Positions 3,632 to 11,121 of a stretch of DNA of 11,121 nt are shown here, in pieces. Location of the stretch: positions 1 to 11,121 of the forward strand of contig JABMQG010000345.1 of NCBI GenBank assembly GCA_013203365.1, given 5' to 3'. The position numbers were made by a program, and so were the translations under genes. A model generated the notes under the pieces. The model was given only the letters and a program-made list of their open reading frames with translations. It did not search any database and was not told the origin of the DNA. Within the stretch, counting starts at the first letter, position 1; each line of letters starts with the position of its first letter. The DNA is from Planctomycetota bacterium (GTDB taxonomy: Bacteria; Planctomycetota; Phycisphaerae; SM23-33; FEN-1343).

Positions 3632-4711
3632 CTATGTGCGACCTTTTTCCTGACAGGAAAAATGGTCGCACACCGCCATCTGAGCCAGCAGCTTTTCCTT
3701 GACGGCCCGGCAGACGACTTGGGGGTCGTCAGCGGTCAATATCGCCTGGCAGACTGCCACGCAGCATCCGCCGGCTGCTGCGAGTTGGCCGATGTTGTCA
3801 GGCGTGATGCCGCCGATTGCCATGTGGGGCACGTCAATCTCGGCTGCCACCTGCTTTAGCAGTGAGATTCCGGCGACAGGTGCGGCAGCCTTTGTGTGCG
3901 AGGGGAACATCGGCCCGACGCCAACGTAGTCCGCACCGGCCGCCACGGCCGCTCGTGCCTGGTCGATGGAATGGGTGCTCAACCCCACCAGCTTGTCGCC
4001 GCCGACGATGCGGCGGGCCTCGGCTACCGGCAGATCGTCCTGGCCGACGTGGACGCCGTCGGCCTGCACTACAGCTGCGATATCCGGCCGATCGTTTATG
4101 ATTAGCAACGTCTCGGTCTGGAGCGTCAAGGCCCGCAGGCGACGAGCCAGGTCCCAGAGTTGGCGGTCAGGAAGATTCTTCTCTCGCAGTTGAATGCAGT
4201 CCGCCCCGCCTGCGATGGCGGCGTGGGCCGTAACTACTGGGTCGCTTCTGCAAAGGTCCGAGGTCAACAGGACGCAAAGCCTGGCCCGTCGTAGACGACC
4301 GGTCAGCCCGCTCCGCACGCACAGCCGTTGTTCGAACGTGTACGCCTGGTATCGCAGCTGTTCGACGTCTCTGGCGATGCCGGCGTCAATGAGTTTGATG
4401 TATTCCTCGATCGTCCGCAGCGCCTCTCCGAGCCGTTTGCACGCGGCGGTAGCCACTGCCGCCGGCGAGGGTCGGTCGGCTTCCTCAGGTGTGGTCACGG
4501 TGGTGCCCACATCGCCTTCGGTGTCCCTGCCGGCAAGCAGTTCCGCCGCCGGCAGAGACTCGATCACGGTCCGCAGCCGGCCCCGCATCACCTTAGCCAA
4601 GGCCGACAGGGCAGGGTCGTCCAGCACGAAGCGTACGTACTCCTCCGCCACTCGCAGCGCCTCGCGGGCCCGGTTGAAGTTCGCATCCAGGATTCGATAG
4701 ACCTCTCGCAT
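3632..4711 (-). CDS. thiE: ThiD2-ThiE fusion: HMP-phosphate kinase / thiamin phosphate synthase
   Basis: Bifunctional cytoplasmic enzyme of thiamin synthesis. Residues about 5-130 form a ThiD2 domain, marked by LDANFNRAREALRVAEEYVRF-like sequence at 8-28 and a second RTIEEYIK helix at 99-106. ThiD2 is known as a monofunctional kinase for hydroxymethylpyrimidine phosphate, replacing ThiD. Residues about 144-345 are ThiE, which joins the pyrimidine to thiazole phosphate. ThiE motifs: QLREKN (174-179), INDRPD (205-210), HVGQDD (221-226), GLSTHS (243-248), GVGPMFPSHTK (264-274) and the phosphate loop IGGI (299-302). Length (359) suits the fusion. No other thi gene is in the window and no TPP riboswitch is recognisable upstream. 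The ATG at 4711 has no Shine-Dalgarno sequence, but a stop lies just upstream in frame and there is no other start, so the choice is forced. The 3' end overlaps a long hairpin. Confidence 0.93.
   Translation of the reverse strand: MREVYRILDANFNRAREALRVAEEYVRFVLDDPALSALAKVMRGRLRTVIESLPAAELLAGRDTEGDVGTTVTTPEEADRPSPAAVATAACKRLGEALRTIEEYIKLIDAGIARDVEQLRYQAYTFEQRLCVRSGLTGRLRRARLCVLLTSDLCRSDPVVTAHAAIAGGADCIQLREKNLPDRQLWDLARRLRALTLQTETLLIINDRPDIAAVVQADGVHVGQDDLPVAEARRIVGGDKLVGLSTHSIDQARAAVAAGADYVGVGPMFPSHTKAAAPVAGISLLKQVAAEIDVPHMAIGGITPDNIGQLAAAGGCCVAVCQAILTADDPQVVCRAVKEKLLAQMAVCDHFSCQEKGRT
3636..3671 (-). repeat. Long hairpin over the 3' end of thiE
   Basis: GTGCGACC (3636-3643) pairs with GGTCGCAC (3664-3671), and TTTTTCC with GGAAAAA directly inside. 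There is one bulged T and a 5-nt loop TGACA. The structure encodes the last dozen codons of thiE and ends two bases before its stop codon. It could protect or terminate the transcript; no T-run follows on the minus strand. Confidence 0.5.
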
Positions 4712-6617: not shown

Positions 6618-6939
6618 ATCTCCCCGCCAGACATCCTGGGAGGACCGTGGTTTTGCCGATGGATACTTCACGTCACAAGACGCTTTCCCTAAATACGATT
6701 ACATTGGATAGAATACAGTGGAAAGTCGCTGTAGTCCAGCCTGTCCACCCGAGAAACCCCATCTACATCTTTGAATTAGACGAACAGCACGTTTCGGACG
6801 ATCCTTGGCGAGCAAAGCTGGCAAGGTCCGAGGCTAATGCTTGATCGTTTTCGGGTGTATGCGGCCGAGAAGCGAAGGACGGCCTGCAGTAGCGCAGACT
6901 GGTCGAGTCGGCCGAGAGCAGAATAACCCAGCCCCCTTG

Positions 6940-6958
6940 CTGCTATGCCAGATAGCAG
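6940..6958. repeat. Inverted repeat, 7-bp perfect arms
   Basis: CTGCTAT and ATAGCAG flank a 5-base spacer GCCAG. It is the outermost of four inverted repeats downstream of the signalling operon. Confidence 0.55.
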
Positions 6959-6970
6959 AAGAAGCCTTAA

Positions 6971-7004
6971 AGGCCGAATGCCGTAAGTACTTACGGCATG
7001 GCCT
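6971..7004 (-). terminator. Hairpin built on a perfect 22-bp palindrome, likely operon terminator
   Basis: ATGCCGTAAGT followed by its exact complement ACTTACGGCAT makes a 22-bp perfect palindrome at 6978-6999. AGGCC (6971-6975) and GGCCT (7000-7004) extend it, with a two-base bulge. As RNA this gives about 14 pairs capped by GUAC. It lies 80 bp past the FNT-fusion stop. On the leftward transcript it is followed by TTAAGGCTTCTTCT, moderately T-rich. A terminator is the simplest reading. The perfect symmetry would also suit a binding site for a dimeric regulator. Confidence 0.5.
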
Positions 7005-7007
7005 CGA

Positions 7008-7020
7008 CCGAATTATTCGG
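7008..7020. repeat. Short palindrome CCGAAT-T-ATTCGG
   Basis: Six-base arms around a single central T, between the FNT-fusion stop and the 22-bp palindrome. It could pair in the operon's 3' end; alone it says little. Confidence 0.4.
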
Positions 7021-7083
7021 GGCGACAGGTGGCGGGAATGATCACGTGGTCGAACTCGGAGTATTTTCTGTAATTATTGTTAT

Positions 7084-8343
7084 TCAAACCTTCTTGGCCT
7101 GCTTCCGTACGTAGACCAGCCAGTAGACCGAGCCGACGAAAATGGCCCCGCCCGCGATGTTGCCCAGCGTCACCGGCAGGAGGTTGCGGACCAGGAAATT
7201 GCCCCACGTCAGCACGTCCAGGTTCATGCTCGCCGACGTGGCGCTGCCCTTGAGGAACAGCCCCATCGGAATGAAGTACATGTTCGCGATGCAGTGCTCG
7301 AAGCCCAGCGCCACGAAGGACATGATGGGGAAGAAGATCACCATCACCTTGCCGGCGATGTCTTTTGCGGAGAACGCCATCCATACCGCCAGGCAGACCA
7401 GCCAGTTGCAGCCGACGCCACGGAAGAACGCCTCGCCGAACGAAAGCTTGATTTTTGCGCTGGCGATGGCCATCGCCTTTTCCCCGACCGCCCCGTCGGC
7501 CATCTTCCAGATGCCGGCATGGTAAAGGATGTACGCCAGCAGCACCGCCCCTACGAAGTTGGCCAGGTACACCTGGGACCACCGGCTGAGCATGCGAGCA
7601 GTACCCAGCTGCCGTTCCAGCACACCGGAGATCATCAGGTTGTTGCCGGTGAACAGCTCGGCCCCTGCGATCACGACGAGTATCAGCCCCAGAGAGAAGG
7701 CGCTTCCGACCAGCAACTGCGCGATCCCGACGCCGACCCTGCTTGCCGCATCGTGCCCCACCAAGGTAGCCAGGGCCGCCCCGAACCCGATGTACGCCCC
7801 GGCCAGCAGTCCAAGGACAAGGGTGTTGAGAAGTGAGGCCGCCCCTTTATTGACGCTCACGGCCTTGGCCACCATCTGTGCCACGGCCTGCGGGGTGCGG
7901 TGCTCAAAATGCTCGGGGTTGGGGGCGACGTCCTTAAGTTGCTGCGCGATGCTTTCGGCGGGTCCGGCATAATGCGGGCGGGCCATCGCCTTGTCCACCG
8001 CCTGCACGATCTCTTCCGGGGTGAAGGGTTTGCATACATAATCCGACGCACCAAGGCGAGTTGCCTCCGCAGCCGATTCCACCGTTCCATACCCGGTGAT
8101 GATCAGCACGGCGGCGTGCACGCGATCCGCTCGGATGCGCCGGACGATCTCCATGCCATCCATGTCCGGCAGCTTCAGATCGACCAGCACGCAGTCGAAA
8201 TAGCCTTGTCGAGTGCGATCCAGGCCCTCCTTACCGGCGGGGGCGGTCTCTACCTCGTAGCCGCTTTGGGTGAAGATCCTCTGGCAGCTTTCTCGCACGG
8301 TCGGTTCATCATCCACGATCAGAATGCGTTTATTGGCGTACAA
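7084..8343 (-). CDS. Response-regulator receiver fused to an FNT-family (formate/nitrite) channel
   Basis: A 419-residue protein combining two complete domains. Residues 5-120 are a CheY-like receiver with acidic pair Asp11/Asp12, phospho-acceptor Asp55, Thr83 and Lys105, all intact. A linker (about 121-150) leads to a full FNT channel at about 150-415, the family of FocA, NirC and HSC that moves formate, nitrite or hydrosulfide as pentamers. FNT signs: GLLAGAYIGFGA (178-189), GAELFTGN (227-234), NWLVCLAVW (313-321) and GFEHCIANM (347-355), whose His350 is the central pore histidine. About six membrane helices can be drawn. The FNT N-terminus is cytoplasmic, so the receiver would face the cytoplasm beside the gate. 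The substrate cannot be told from sequence. The start is TTG at 8343, with AAAGGAG six bases upstream; no other start precedes Met61. The ribosome site overlaps the stop of the preceding regulator gene, so translation is probably coupled. Confidence 0.93.
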   Translation of the reverse strand: MYANKRILIVDDEPTVRESCQRIFTQSGYEVETAPAGKEGLDRTRQGYFDCVLVDLKLPDMDGMEIVRRIRADRVHAAVLIITGYGTVESAAEATRLGASDYVCKPFTPEEIVQAVDKAMARPHYAGPAESIAQQLKDVAPNPEHFEHRTPQAVAQMVAKAVSVNKGAASLLNTLVLGLLAGAYIGFGAALATLVGHDAASRVGVGIAQLLVGSAFSLGLILVVIAGAELFTGNNLMISGVLERQLGTARMLSRWSQVYLANFVGAVLLAYILYHAGIWKMADGAVGEKAMAIASAKIKLSFGEAFFRGVGCNWLVCLAVWMAFSAKDIAGKVMVIFFPIMSFVALGFEHCIANMYFIPMGLFLKGSATSASMNLDVLTWGNFLVRNLLPVTLGNIAGGAIFVGSVYWLVYVRKQAKKV

Positions 8344-8355: not shown

Positions 8356-8970
8356 TCACCAAACTTCAGCCTCCAGGCGCTGCTGTAGCCACTGTCGTTC
8401 CTGGGGCGAAAGCTCTCCGCACTGCTTTTCGATCCAGGCGATGTCACCAGAGACGATCGCAGCCTCGGCCCGGTCACCCAGGGCAAAGCCGGAAAGTACT
8501 CGGCTGCCTTCGGCCAGCACCCGCGCGCCAAACGAGGGGTCTTGGGCTGCAACCCTCAGCACGGCGCGAACCTTGTCGGCTTGGACTTCCGGCGCAGCCG
8601 GCGGGACGAGAAGGGCCTTGTTGACGGCCTCCACGATCTGATCGGGGGTAAAAGGCTTCTCAATGTATTCCGACACCCCCAACTTCGTCGCCGTCACCGC
8701 CGAAGTAATTGTTCCGAAACCAGTAATGATGATAATCGCCGTCTGTGGCCGATCCTTTCGCACGGCGCGGACCAGCTCCATGCCGTCCAAGTCCGGCATC
8801 CTCAGGTCGGCCATCACCAGGTCGAAGGGCTGCGAAAGGGCCTGCCGCAGCCCCTCTTGGCCACTTTCGGCGGTCTCCACCTGATGACCTTCCACCAAGA
8901 GGATTCGCCGACAGCTCTTGGTCACCACCGGCTCGTCATCTACCACCAGGATTCTTCGAGCTGCTACCAT
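8356..8970 (-). CDS. Single-receiver response regulator with a conserved-looking C-terminal tail
   Basis: A 204-residue response regulator without a DNA-binding or enzymatic output domain. The receiver covers about 5-120, with Asp11/Asp12, phospho-acceptor Asp55, Thr83 and Lys105 at exactly the numbers found in the FNT fusion. A hand alignment without gaps gives about 64 identities in 115 positions, so the two are close paralogs. The last 75 residues form a distinct helical tail: AAQDPSFGARVL (141-152), then GFALGDRAEAAIVSGDIAWI (161-180) and ERQWLQQRLEAEVW (191-204). This resembles the short helical domain of Os1348/NHLP-type proteins; that is recognition from memory and uncertain. The frame is open to 9084, but those extra codons cover the sigma-54 promoter and are unlike a receiver N-terminus. 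The ATG at 8970 has GGAAGGA 11 bases upstream. The FNT fusion follows after 12 bp. Confidence 0.88.
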   Translation of the reverse strand: MVAARRILVVDDEPVVTKSCRRILLVEGHQVETAESGQEGLRQALSQPFDLVMADLRMPDLDGMELVRAVRKDRPQTAIIIITGFGTITSAVTATKLGVSEYIEKPFTPDQIVEAVNKALLVPPAAPEVQADKVRAVLRVAAQDPSFGARVLAEGSRVLSGFALGDRAEAAIVSGDIAWIEKQCGELSPQERQWLQQRLEAEVW

Positions 8971-9036: not shown

Positions 9037-9051
9037 AGCAACCCTCGTGCC
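9037..9051 (-). promoter_or_regulatory. Sigma-54 (-24/-12) promoter of the regulator-FNT operon
   Basis: The minus strand reads GGCACGAGGGTTGCT. GG at 9051-9050 and GC at 9039-9038 are exactly 10 bases apart. Against the known consensus YTGGCACGrNNNTTGCW only the T before GG differs. The predicted start is near 9026, giving a leader of about 56 bases to the ATG at 8970. Such promoters need RpoN and an AAA+ activator. Neither regulator here has an AAA+ domain, so the activator must be encoded elsewhere. Confidence 0.7.
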
Positions 9052-9072
9052 GGGGAACTTCTGGAGGCCGGC

Positions 9073-9084: not shown

Positions 9085-9290
9085 TCGCCATAACCCGTTT
9101 CAATATCGGCGGATAGACTTCGGAAATACTCGCCCTTGATCTGATGTCATTTCCCCTGCTCCCGGCAGACCGTATGGCCAAAGCCGACAGTTGTATGTCT
9201 GTCTTGTACACATCATCGCCCCCGGCTGATGACTATCAAACCTCTAGCGGCATAGGTAGAATGAGGCCTGATTCAAGCAGGAAGGATCGA

Positions 9291-11121
9291 ATGAGGCTAA
9301 GCAGCCGAGTCATGTTGAGCATGCTCTCTGTTGTCGCGATCTCCGGAGGTGTCTCCACGGTGATCGGAGGACATCTGCTCTGGCGCAACCTGAGCCGGGA
9401 AGCCGAGAATCGGGTGCGCCAGGATCTTAACGCCGCTGGCGAGTTCTACAACCAGCATCTCCAGAGCATGGCCGAGCCATTGCGTTACACAGCTATGGGC
9501 GAACGGTTTTCTGAGGCCCTCGCTGAGAAAGAACTCCAGTACCTCAGCTCGCGGTTGGAGTTGGTCCGCAAGAATGCCTCGTTGGACATCCTGTGCGCCA
9601 CGGACGCCAACGGCATCGTGATTTACCGCGCGCACCGCGGTGAACTGTCCGGCGACTCCTTGGCGGAGGATCGCTTGGTCAAGGCGGTGCTGGCCGGCAA
9701 GGACGCCGTCTATGGGACCATCCTGGTGCCGATGGAAACCCTCCAGCGAGAAGCCCCGGCGTTGGCGAGAAAGGCCAGGATCGGGATTCTTCCCACAACC
9801 AAGGCCAGACCGTCGGACAAGACCGAGTTGAATTCGGGCATGATGCTTTGCGCGGCGGCTGCCGTGCGGGGAAACGGCGGGGAACTCATCGGGGTACTCA
9901 GGGCCGGCGTCCTACTGAATCGCAATTACGACCTGGTCGACCAAGTCCAGGACATCGTATTCCATGCAGAGCGATATCGCCAGAAGCTGCTGGGCACGGC
10001 CACTGTCTTTCAGGACGACGTTCGCGTCTCGACCAACGTTCTGCAGCCTGACGGCACTCGTGCCATCGGCACCCGCGTCAGCGAGGAGGTTTATGACTGC
10101 GTTTTCGGTCAGGCCAAAACCTGGGTGGGCCCGGCCTGGGTGGTTCAGGACTGGTACATTTCGGCTTATGGGCCCATTCACGACATCGACGGCAAGACAA
10201 TCGGAATGCTCTACGTGGGAGTGCTGAAGCAGAAGTTCGACGCGGTCATGCTGGGCACGTTCCTTACCTTCTCGCTGGTGGCGCTGGCTGGCGTGGTGGC
10301 CGCCGGCCTGGCGGCCTGGCGGCTCTCGGTGACCATCTCGCGACCCGTGCTGGCCCTGGCACGAGCCACGGAGAGCATCGCGGGAGGAGACTTCTCGCAG
10401 AAGCTCACGGTGGAATCCACGGACGAACTGAATTCCCTGACCTATGCCTTCAACACTATGACAAACTCACTGAACGAACGGGATGAACTGCTGAAAGAGC
10501 GAACGCGCCTCCAACTGACCCGTTCCGAACGGCTGGCGTCGATCGGCCGGCTGGCTGCCGGTGTGGCCCACGAGATTAACAACCCGCTGACCGGCGTGCT
10601 AACCTTCGCCCACATGCTTCTCAAGGATGCCCCGGAGGGGTCCCCCCAGAGGGAAGACTTGCAGACCATCATCGACGCCACCACGCGATGCAGGGACATC
10701 GTCCGTGGGCTGTTGAACTTCTCGCGGCAGAGCGAGCCGCACAAGACGCAGTCGGACCTGAACCAGGTCCTCCGAGAGACCATCAGCCTGATCCGGAACC
10801 AAGCCTCCATCAGCCGCGTGAGCATCTCGGAGGAATTCGAGCCCTCCCTGCCCCCGGCGGTGATCGATTCCAACCAGATCAAAGAGGTCGCGGTGAACGT
10901 GCTAGTCAATGCCATAGACGCTTCGAGCGAGGGCGGAAGCCTGACCGTTCGCACCCGTCCGTTGGACAAGGACGGCATCAAGTGGGTTGAGTTCGAGATT
11001 ACCGATACCGGCTGCGGAATCTCTCCGGAAAACCTCGAACGCGTCTTCGACCCTTTCTTCACCACCAAACCGACCGGCAAAGGTACTGGGCTGGGCCTTG
11101 CCATCAGCTACGGCATCGTCA
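9291..11121 (+). CDS. Membrane sensor histidine kinase with Cache, HAMP, HisKA and HATPase domains (3' partial)
   Basis: 610 residues are visible before the window ends. A transmembrane helix at about 7-30 and a second at about 319-343 enclose some 285 extracytoplasmic residues. This region has Cache-type features: DGTRAIGTRV (254-263), TWVGPAWVVQDWYISAYGPI (277-296) and IGMLYVGVL (304-312), recalling Cache_3/Cache_2 sensors of small organic ligands. HAMP covers about 340-397. HisKA carries His427 in GVAHEINNP. The ATPase domain shows the N box with Asn540, the G1 box DTGCG at 572-576, the F box DPFFTTKP (587-594) and GKGTGLGL (596-603). The rest of the ATPase domain and any C-terminal receiver lie beyond the edge. 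ATG 9291 is chosen for the AGGAAGGA just upstream; an in-frame ATG at 9261 would add 10 residues. It is divergent from the two regulators and is their likely partner. Confidence 0.92.
   Translation, partial: MRLSSRVMLSMLSVVAISGGVSTVIGGHLLWRNLSREAENRVRQDLNAAGEFYNQHLQSMAEPLRYTAMGERFSEALAEKELQYLSSRLELVRKNASLDILCATDANGIVIYRAHRGELSGDSLAEDRLVKAVLAGKDAVYGTILVPMETLQREAPALARKARIGILPTTKARPSDKTELNSGMMLCAAAAVRGNGGELIGVLRAGVLLNRNYDLVDQVQDIVFHAERYRQKLLGTATVFQDDVRVSTNVLQPDGTRAIGTRVSEEVYDCVFGQAKTWVGPAWVVQDWYISAYGPIHDIDGKTIGMLYVGVLKQKFDAVMLGTFLTFSLVALAGVVAAGLAAWRLSVTISRPVLALARATESIAGGDFSQKLTVESTDELNSLTYAFNTMTNSLNERDELLKERTRLQLTRSERLASIGRLAAGVAHEINNPLTGVLTFAHMLLKDAPEGSPQREDLQTIIDATTRCRDIVRGLLNFSRQSEPHKTQSDLNQVLRETISLIRNQASISRVSISEEFEPSLPPAVIDSNQIKEVAVNVLVNAIDASSEGGSLTVRTRPLDKDGIKWVEFEITDTGCGISPENLERVFDPFFTTKPTGKGTGLGLAISYGIV

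Follow-up and report, generated by a model that had tools for sequence, protein, structure and literature searches.

The formate channel FocA of E. coli, V. cholerae and S. typhimurium carries a short N-terminal segment under the control of PflB, which binds the FocA N-terminus and controls translocation; without the N-terminal helix, translocation in vivo is severely disrupted and the contact between Thr91 and His209 is lost (PMC11841067, PMC12559229). Response regulators of the FixJ and NtrC types have a receiver with active-site and switch residues and a linked kinase, and their outputs are DNA binding or an enzyme. Transporters have also been found joined to two-component parts: CbrA is an SLC5-type transporter fused to a kinase, on the input side as a sensor kinase. 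In the planctomycete protein Ks-Amt5, an Amt transporter fused to a histidine kinase likewise serves as input, and its transport is lost (PMC5764959).

Within the window (the whole 11,121-nucleotide stretch of planctomycete DNA analysed here), we find a single reading frame in which a receiver is followed by an FNT channel. This protein, RR-FNT, shares the fold, the pore residues and the N-terminal helix of FocA, but has a receiver ahead of that helix. It resembles FixJ- and NtrC-type regulators in its active-site and switch residues and in its linked kinase, whereas its predicted output is a membrane channel; unlike Ks-Amt5, it combines a receiver with an apparently intact channel, on the output side. 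We give slightly better than even credence to the reading that RR-FNT works as a response regulator with, as its output, a pentameric channel of the FocA type, probably for formate, gated by phosphorylation through the N-terminal helix.

The RR-FNT protein and its conservation

The gene and its parts are as follows.

7084-8343, minus strand: RR-FNT gene (receiver and FNT channel); TTG start at 8343, stop at 7084, 419 amino acids
7996-8325, minus strand: receiver domain, residues 7-116 (Response_reg, 1.8e-31); codon of the phospho-acceptor Asp55 at 8179-8181
7894-7980, minus strand: linker, residues 122-150; low-confidence in the model, of near-constant length in most relatives
7843-7893, minus strand: helix, residues 151-167, matching the FocA N-terminal helix; Lys166 aligned with FocA Lys26
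7117-7863, minus strand: FNT channel domain, residues 161-409 (Form_Nir_trans, 5.2e-79); codon of the pore residue His350 at 7294-7296

A Shine-Dalgarno-like AAAGGAG precedes the TTG start. The preliminary description had reported an uninterrupted frame with a complete receiver and a complete channel, and both are there: Asp11, Asp12, Asp55, Thr83 and Lys105 all lie where it placed them, and the motif GFEHCIANM occupies residues 347-355. The Pfam matches cover positions 1-110 of 111 in the Response_reg profile (residues 7-116) and 8-240 of 240 in Form_Nir_trans (residues 161-409), separated by a linker of about 30 residues. The receiver has the acidic pair, the phospho-accepting Asp, the Thr/Ser and the Lys of response regulators, and the channel has the pore Thr, the pore His and the Phe gate of FNT proteins (T232, H350, F216 and F343); judged by these residues and profiles, the protein belongs both to the FNT family and to the response regulators. 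It scores 265.4 bits against PF01226 (cut-off 34.6) and 252 bits against TIGR00790 (cut-off 232.3), while its 227.9 bits against the FocA equivalog model TIGR04060 fall below the cut-off of 290.1; by sequence it is FocA-like and not classed as a FocA equivalog. Its best sequence matches among solved proteins are the formate channels 3kly (3.1e-53) and 3kcu (9.7e-48), followed by the bicarbonate transporter LciA (6.9e-41) and then by the hydrosulfide channel (HSC) and NirC. No kinase domain was found in RR-FNT by Pfam when it was examined as a possible transporter-type sensor kinase similar to Ks-Amt5.

A single-chain structure model (80-sequence alignment, mean pLDDT 84.4, pTM 0.62) predicts a receiver, a poorly defined stretch at about residues 122-150, the helix at 151-167 and the channel, and matches full-length E. 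coli FocA (9g49) with a TM-score of 0.92 by target length. Because the linker is modelled with low confidence (block mean pLDDT of 62, 47 and 52 over residues 121-150) and the pTM is 0.62, the position of the receiver relative to the pore is uncertain.

The preliminary description had proposed a search for the same domain order. Of the 120 homologues listed from a protein search with 7,998 scored, 119 carry both precomputed domains, the window's own protein included. A second search, begun from a relative at locus L083, listed 120 proteins, 96 with both domains and 24 with the channel alone. An alignment of 227 rows contained 200 that qualified as fused, among them two receiver-kinase-FNT proteins. 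All 200 fused rows have Asp55 and Lys105, Thr or Ser at position 83 and Tyr or Phe at position 102, and the acidic pair, and with it the full receiver set, is found in 199, the remaining row having a gap at the pair. The channel is kept equally well: the equivalents of FocA F75, L79, L89, F90, T91, N172, F202 and H209 (where we take L79, L89, F90 and N172 to be the FocA numbers of the positions checked) are each retained in 199-200 of the 200, unlike what is expected of a channel degraded into a sensor. At the FocA Lys26 position 180 rows have Lys; at that of F207, 105 have Tyr, 92 Phe and 3 Leu. F75, T91, F202, F207, H209 and K26 are residues named in PMC12559229.

Measured between motif positions on raw sequences, the receiver motif KPF and the channel motif ELFTG lie 122-129 residues apart in 134 of the 138 sequences that came from the first search and the fetched loci. 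The L083 lineage has a longer and more varied linker, with the FNT domain starting between residues 152 and 194 across the eight two-domain members that were scanned and a KPF-ELFTG spacing of 145-155 in many rows; the value of 187 for L083 itself was probably counted from an earlier KPF. The near-constant spacing in most sequences fits mechanical coupling better than a free docking arm, and a linker of about 30 residues could also be a loose tether rather than a lever.

An assembly or frameshift artefact is ruled out, since the same fused frame appears in many independent contigs and in two chromosomes (Spirochaetaceae CP070696.1 and Desulfosediminicola flagellatus NZ_CP050698.1). The frame is broken in two relatives, at L032 and L134. 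In Desulfosarcina cetonica (L032:2907-4156) it is in two pieces and in genome G704 (L134, from 1498) it stops inside, each reflecting either real decay or sequencing error. On this comparison of sequences the architecture is real and conserved. Open-licence PMC searches gave no paper pointing to a receiver-FNT protein by title, abstract start or hit counts, and the terms 'response regulator', 'fused' and 'fusion' are absent from the main text of a 2017 FNT survey (PMC5525234). The architecture is undescribed in the literature searched, although database annotation already gives both Pfam domains on RR-FNT proteins.

Distribution and origins of the fusion

Among the best 80 loci from a scan of genome contigs, fused genes were found in Planctomycetota, Desulfobacteraceae, Desulfobacterales, Desulfosediminicola flagellatus (chromosome), Desulfamplus, Spirochaetaceae (chromosome), Acidobacteria, Candidatus Zipacnadia, Latescibacterota and deltaproteobacteria. 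Matches to both domains were also counted in sampled genomes, in each case including the centre genome and with only part of the candidates scored, so that the counts may be lower bounds: at least 2 of 392 genomes in the window's phylum and at least 2 of 38 in its order, at least 2 of 257 and 7 of 85 in the two classes of the desulfobacterial members (the frame being broken in one of these seven), at least 3 of 248 in the spirochaete class, and, for the class to which the planctomycete G429 belongs, at least 1 of 75 (the centre itself). RR-FNT therefore occurs in several bacterial phyla, sparsely. The earlier statement that FNT proteins are normally free-standing agrees with the rarity of the fusion in the window's phylum, but has to be qualified, since RR-FNT proteins form a conserved family that spans several phyla, and the FNT domain has other fusion partners as well.

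The fused gene is the sole FNT gene found in 14 of 15 genomes, the broken copy in G442 (two pieces) being counted once, and no other FNT gene was found in the window's assembly (2.6 Mb, 82% complete). The exception is the spirochaete G431, whose second FNT (L127:7541-8755) bears a C-terminal CBS pair and has two CheY-like receivers and a GAF histidine kinase as its neighbours. A Nitrospirae metagenome-assembled genome encodes an FNT with a C-terminal PilZ domain (L050:9989-11254), suggesting control by c-di-GMP. Like RR-FNT, these two proteins, a single example of each, join an FNT channel to a cytoplasmic signalling domain, but the domain is C-terminal and the signals are different. FNT fusions with histidine-kinase domains were seen in addition to those with CBS and PilZ: P0249 (685 amino acids) and P0255 (672 amino acids), found in the L083 search, hold receiver, HisKA, HATPase and FNT in one chain, with HisKA scores of 18-19 bits, under the cut-off of 26.9. 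As a separate matter, plasmid cargo was rejected as an explanation, with no plasmid match at E 1e-60.

A tree of 98 FNT domains places 36 of the 37 fused domains, together with three unfused ones, in one group (SH-aLRT 93, not starred); the remaining fused domain, L083, joins three unfused domains to make a starred group of four (96). The tree of receivers pairs the FNT receiver of L083 with that of its own RR2, the partner response regulator described below (71% identical, support 99), and in the planctomycete lineage it shows the RR2 receivers as sister to the FNT receivers. A single clade of all 37 fused receivers has a p-AU of 0.076, not rejected at 0.05, and without L083 the value is 0.70. 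Given the position of the L083 channel among unfused domains and the pairing of its receiver with its own RR2, L083 looks like a separate fusion and two origins are likely. A single origin for all fusions fits less cleanly, L083 lying outside the main FNT group.

The same relationships bear on whether the receiver is an ordinary passenger that does nothing to transport, or whether the protein is split in two in the cell. Fusions between operon neighbours are common, RR-FNT lies directly after RR2, and in the planctomycete lineage their receivers are sister groups. A drifting passenger, however, would be expected to lose its active site, and Asp55 and Lys105 are universal in the fused rows; moreover, the fusion spans several phyla and was probably made a second time with a similar cast of genes. 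We give the passenger explanation very little credence.

The putative operon, its linked kinase and a candidate promoter

Upstream and downstream of RR-FNT, we identified the following features.

8356-8970, minus strand: RR2, a partner response regulator of 204 amino acids with a receiver and a helical C-terminal domain of about 75 residues that has no Pfam match
9037-9052, minus strand: candidate sigma-54 (-24/-12) promoter, CGGCACGAGGGTTGCT, 66 nucleotides before RR2; as good a box occurs in 0.7% of 300 shuffles
9291-11121, plus strand: histidine kinase (Cache_3, HAMP, HisKA, HATPase_c), divergent from RR2 and ended by the contig end
6978-6999, minus strand: perfect 22-nucleotide palindrome, ATGCCGTAAGTACTTACGGCAT, about 85 nucleotides after the RR-FNT stop; hairpin z = -4.5

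The RR2 gene stops 12 nucleotides upstream of the RR-FNT start, which suggests that the two are transcribed together, and the palindrome is a possible transcript end; it was read directly from the sequence, an inverted-repeat search over 6700-7110 having returned nothing at its settings. The C-terminal domain of RR2 is conserved, with a consensus around SGDIAWIEKECGEL. It matches nothing in Pfam, and the 50 listed Foldseek matches either cover the receiver alone or span more than 150 columns at an rmsd of 7.7 or more; we note it as an orphan output domain. The longest frame of the kinase begins at 9144, and its relative at L145 aligns from kinase residue 50 (9291). Elsewhere in the window, at 3632-4711, a ThiD2-family domain is fused with thiamine-phosphate synthase.

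We inspected 27 fused loci, several only about 4 kb long (the window, L002-L015, L032, L083/L141, L112/L145, L120, L129-L134, L136/L142 and L137/L143). A homologue of the window's kinase is present in 18, in some with the kinase core only within the locus, and RR2 in 15, with a shorter form at L136. One or both occur in 21 of the 27, and both are absent from six (L006, L010, L011, L015, L131 and L137), of which L131 has a distant kinase match (28%). The sensor part of the L141 kinase homologue is GAF/PAS. L145, a relative from the same order, repeats the window's layout and continues past the kinase to a sigma-54 NtrC-type regulator, as does L141; both planctomycete loci that reach far enough have this regulator after the kinase, whereas what mostly comes after the kinase in desulfobacterial and spirochaete loci is a single-domain, CheY-like receiver. 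At L002:1602-3980, upstream of RR2 and RR-FNT, there is a further fusion of a receiver with a metabolic module, in this case with 4Fe-4S and pyridine-nucleotide oxidoreductase domains.

The alpha-1 helix of a receiver is the surface that recognises the kinase. Its motif appears alike among receivers of the same locus, most clearly at L083/L141 (CRSCSDIL in the FNT receiver, CKSCCDIL in RR2 and CKSCQDIL in the NtrC-type regulator), a likeness to which relatedness also contributes. The linked kinase presumably phosphorylates the RR-FNT receiver. The idea that a phosphorylatable receiver sits at the known control point of FNT gating is supported by the retention of receiver and pore residues and by the neighbouring kinase gene.

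Several receivers per kinase at each locus, as in phosphate-sink designs, would also suit the opposite direction of signalling, in which formate occupancy or flux in the channel would alter how the receiver gains or loses phosphate, either reporting formate to the kinase, RR2 and the sigma-54 regulator or drawing off phosphate as a sink tuned by formate. The planctomycete protein Ks-Amt5 is a known example of a sensing fusion between transporter and kinase (PMC5764959), and two distant relatives of RR-FNT have a kinase between receiver and channel. In Ks-Amt5, however, the transporter precedes the kinase and transport is lost (PMC5764959), whereas in RR-FNT the channel comes last in the chain with its pore residues intact, and the window's kinase has a Cache sensor of its own. 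Signalling from channel to receiver is thus the main alternative to phosphorylation-gating, weakened by the intact pore and by the place of the channel in the chain, and we regard it as unlikely.

The best sigma-54 box scores 9 or more in 7 of 19 upstream regions, the window's included, against 0.33 expected from shuffles, with a threshold that is not independent, as the count followed a first look at 12 regions showing the hits. The other 12 of the 19 lack a box of this quality, and matches across the whole window (12 versus 13.2 expected) and across L145 (9 versus 15) are no more than chance for the window and fewer than expected for L145; the case for sigma-54 is therefore built on the position of the box and on the 7 of 19 regions. 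Sigma-70-like sites number two, with 0.9 expected, and were given no weight. The preliminary description had cast the fusion as a fast alternative to transcriptional output. As stated, this is probably wrong, considering the NtrC-type regulator behind the kinase in the same-order relative and the L083 lineage and the sigma-54-like boxes ahead of 7 of 19 operons; direct control of the channel probably adds to transcriptional control and does not replace it. The adjacent kinase, the partner receiver RR2 and the transcriptional arm were all missing from that first account, which also left the substrate open.

Substrate and proposed gating

Gene context is the main guide to the substrate. In the spirochaete chromosome (L005), NuoE-, NuoF- and FdhA-type genes begin 19 nucleotides after RR-FNT (FdhA, 898 bits versus a cut-off of 666), in G888 (L142) RR-FNT faces an FdhA-NuoF-NuoE set, and in G706 the RR-FNT operon lies behind a NuoF-type cluster with a partial molybdopterin domain. 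Of the 27 loci, many of them only about 4 kb long, just two have FdhA-type genes adjoining the fused gene, and a third has a NuoF-type cluster; HypD and HypE lie upstream in two fused loci. FdhA is common in anaerobes. Across whole genomes, it is above the TIGR01591 cut-off in 14 of 18 with the fusion, the window's included, versus 5 of 14 control genomes, and the window's genome has it on another contig, next to a NuoF-type frame. PFL-like enzymes, to which the partner of E. coli FocA belongs, are present in 13 of the 18 fused genomes; they were not found in the other five, among them the window's (assembly 82% complete), which leaves the analogy with FocA incomplete. From the formate dehydrogenase (FDH) context, formate is most likely what the channel conducts, possibly in coupling with a cytoplasmic FDH. 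Nitrite, hydrosulfide and bicarbonate may be alternatives, since LciA outscores both HSC and NirC by sequence.

FDH genes beside the fused gene at L005 and L142 would equally fit a receiver that, when phosphorylated, recruits a cytoplasmic partner such as FDH or RR2 to the mouth of the channel and leaves the pore ungated. PflB, recruited to the FocA N-terminus where it controls translocation, offers a precedent (PMC11841067, PMC12559229), and the conserved helical domain of RR2, with no Pfam match, could serve such docking. Yet the FDH genes adjoin the fusion at just those two loci, PFL-like enzymes were not found in the window's genome, and the near-constant spacing in most sequences favours mechanical coupling. 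We hold recruitment without gating to be a little less likely again than signalling from channel to receiver.

In our preferred reading, gating by phosphorylation, the membrane kinase would sense an external cue through its Cache domain and phosphorylate receivers that share a docking surface: RR2, the receiver borne by the channel and, in relatives, the NtrC-type sigma-54 activator. In five receivers below a presumed pentamer, phosphorylation of Asp55 would shift the Thr83/Tyr102 switch together with the alpha4-beta5-alpha5 face. Through the linker, and whichever the presumed sign of the gating, the receivers would pull or free the N-terminal helix that FocA needs for the Thr91-His209 contact and an open pore. 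The same signal would thereby set formate flux directly and also set expression. We see even chances that these proteins represent ion channels that two-component phosphorylation gates directly, response regulators with anion permeation as their output, a class that arose at least twice and that in a few proteins takes in the kinase as well, one polypeptide then holding receiver, kinase and channel.

If this reading is true, formate flux across the membrane would be switched in phosphotransfer time and not in gene-expression time. RR-FNT would then be a natural handle on how the FNT N-terminus opens and closes the pore, with a gate that may be locked on with beryllofluoride or off by Asp55Ala, and gating would become testable without the PflB complex. 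It would also extend the range of outputs of response regulators to a membrane channel.
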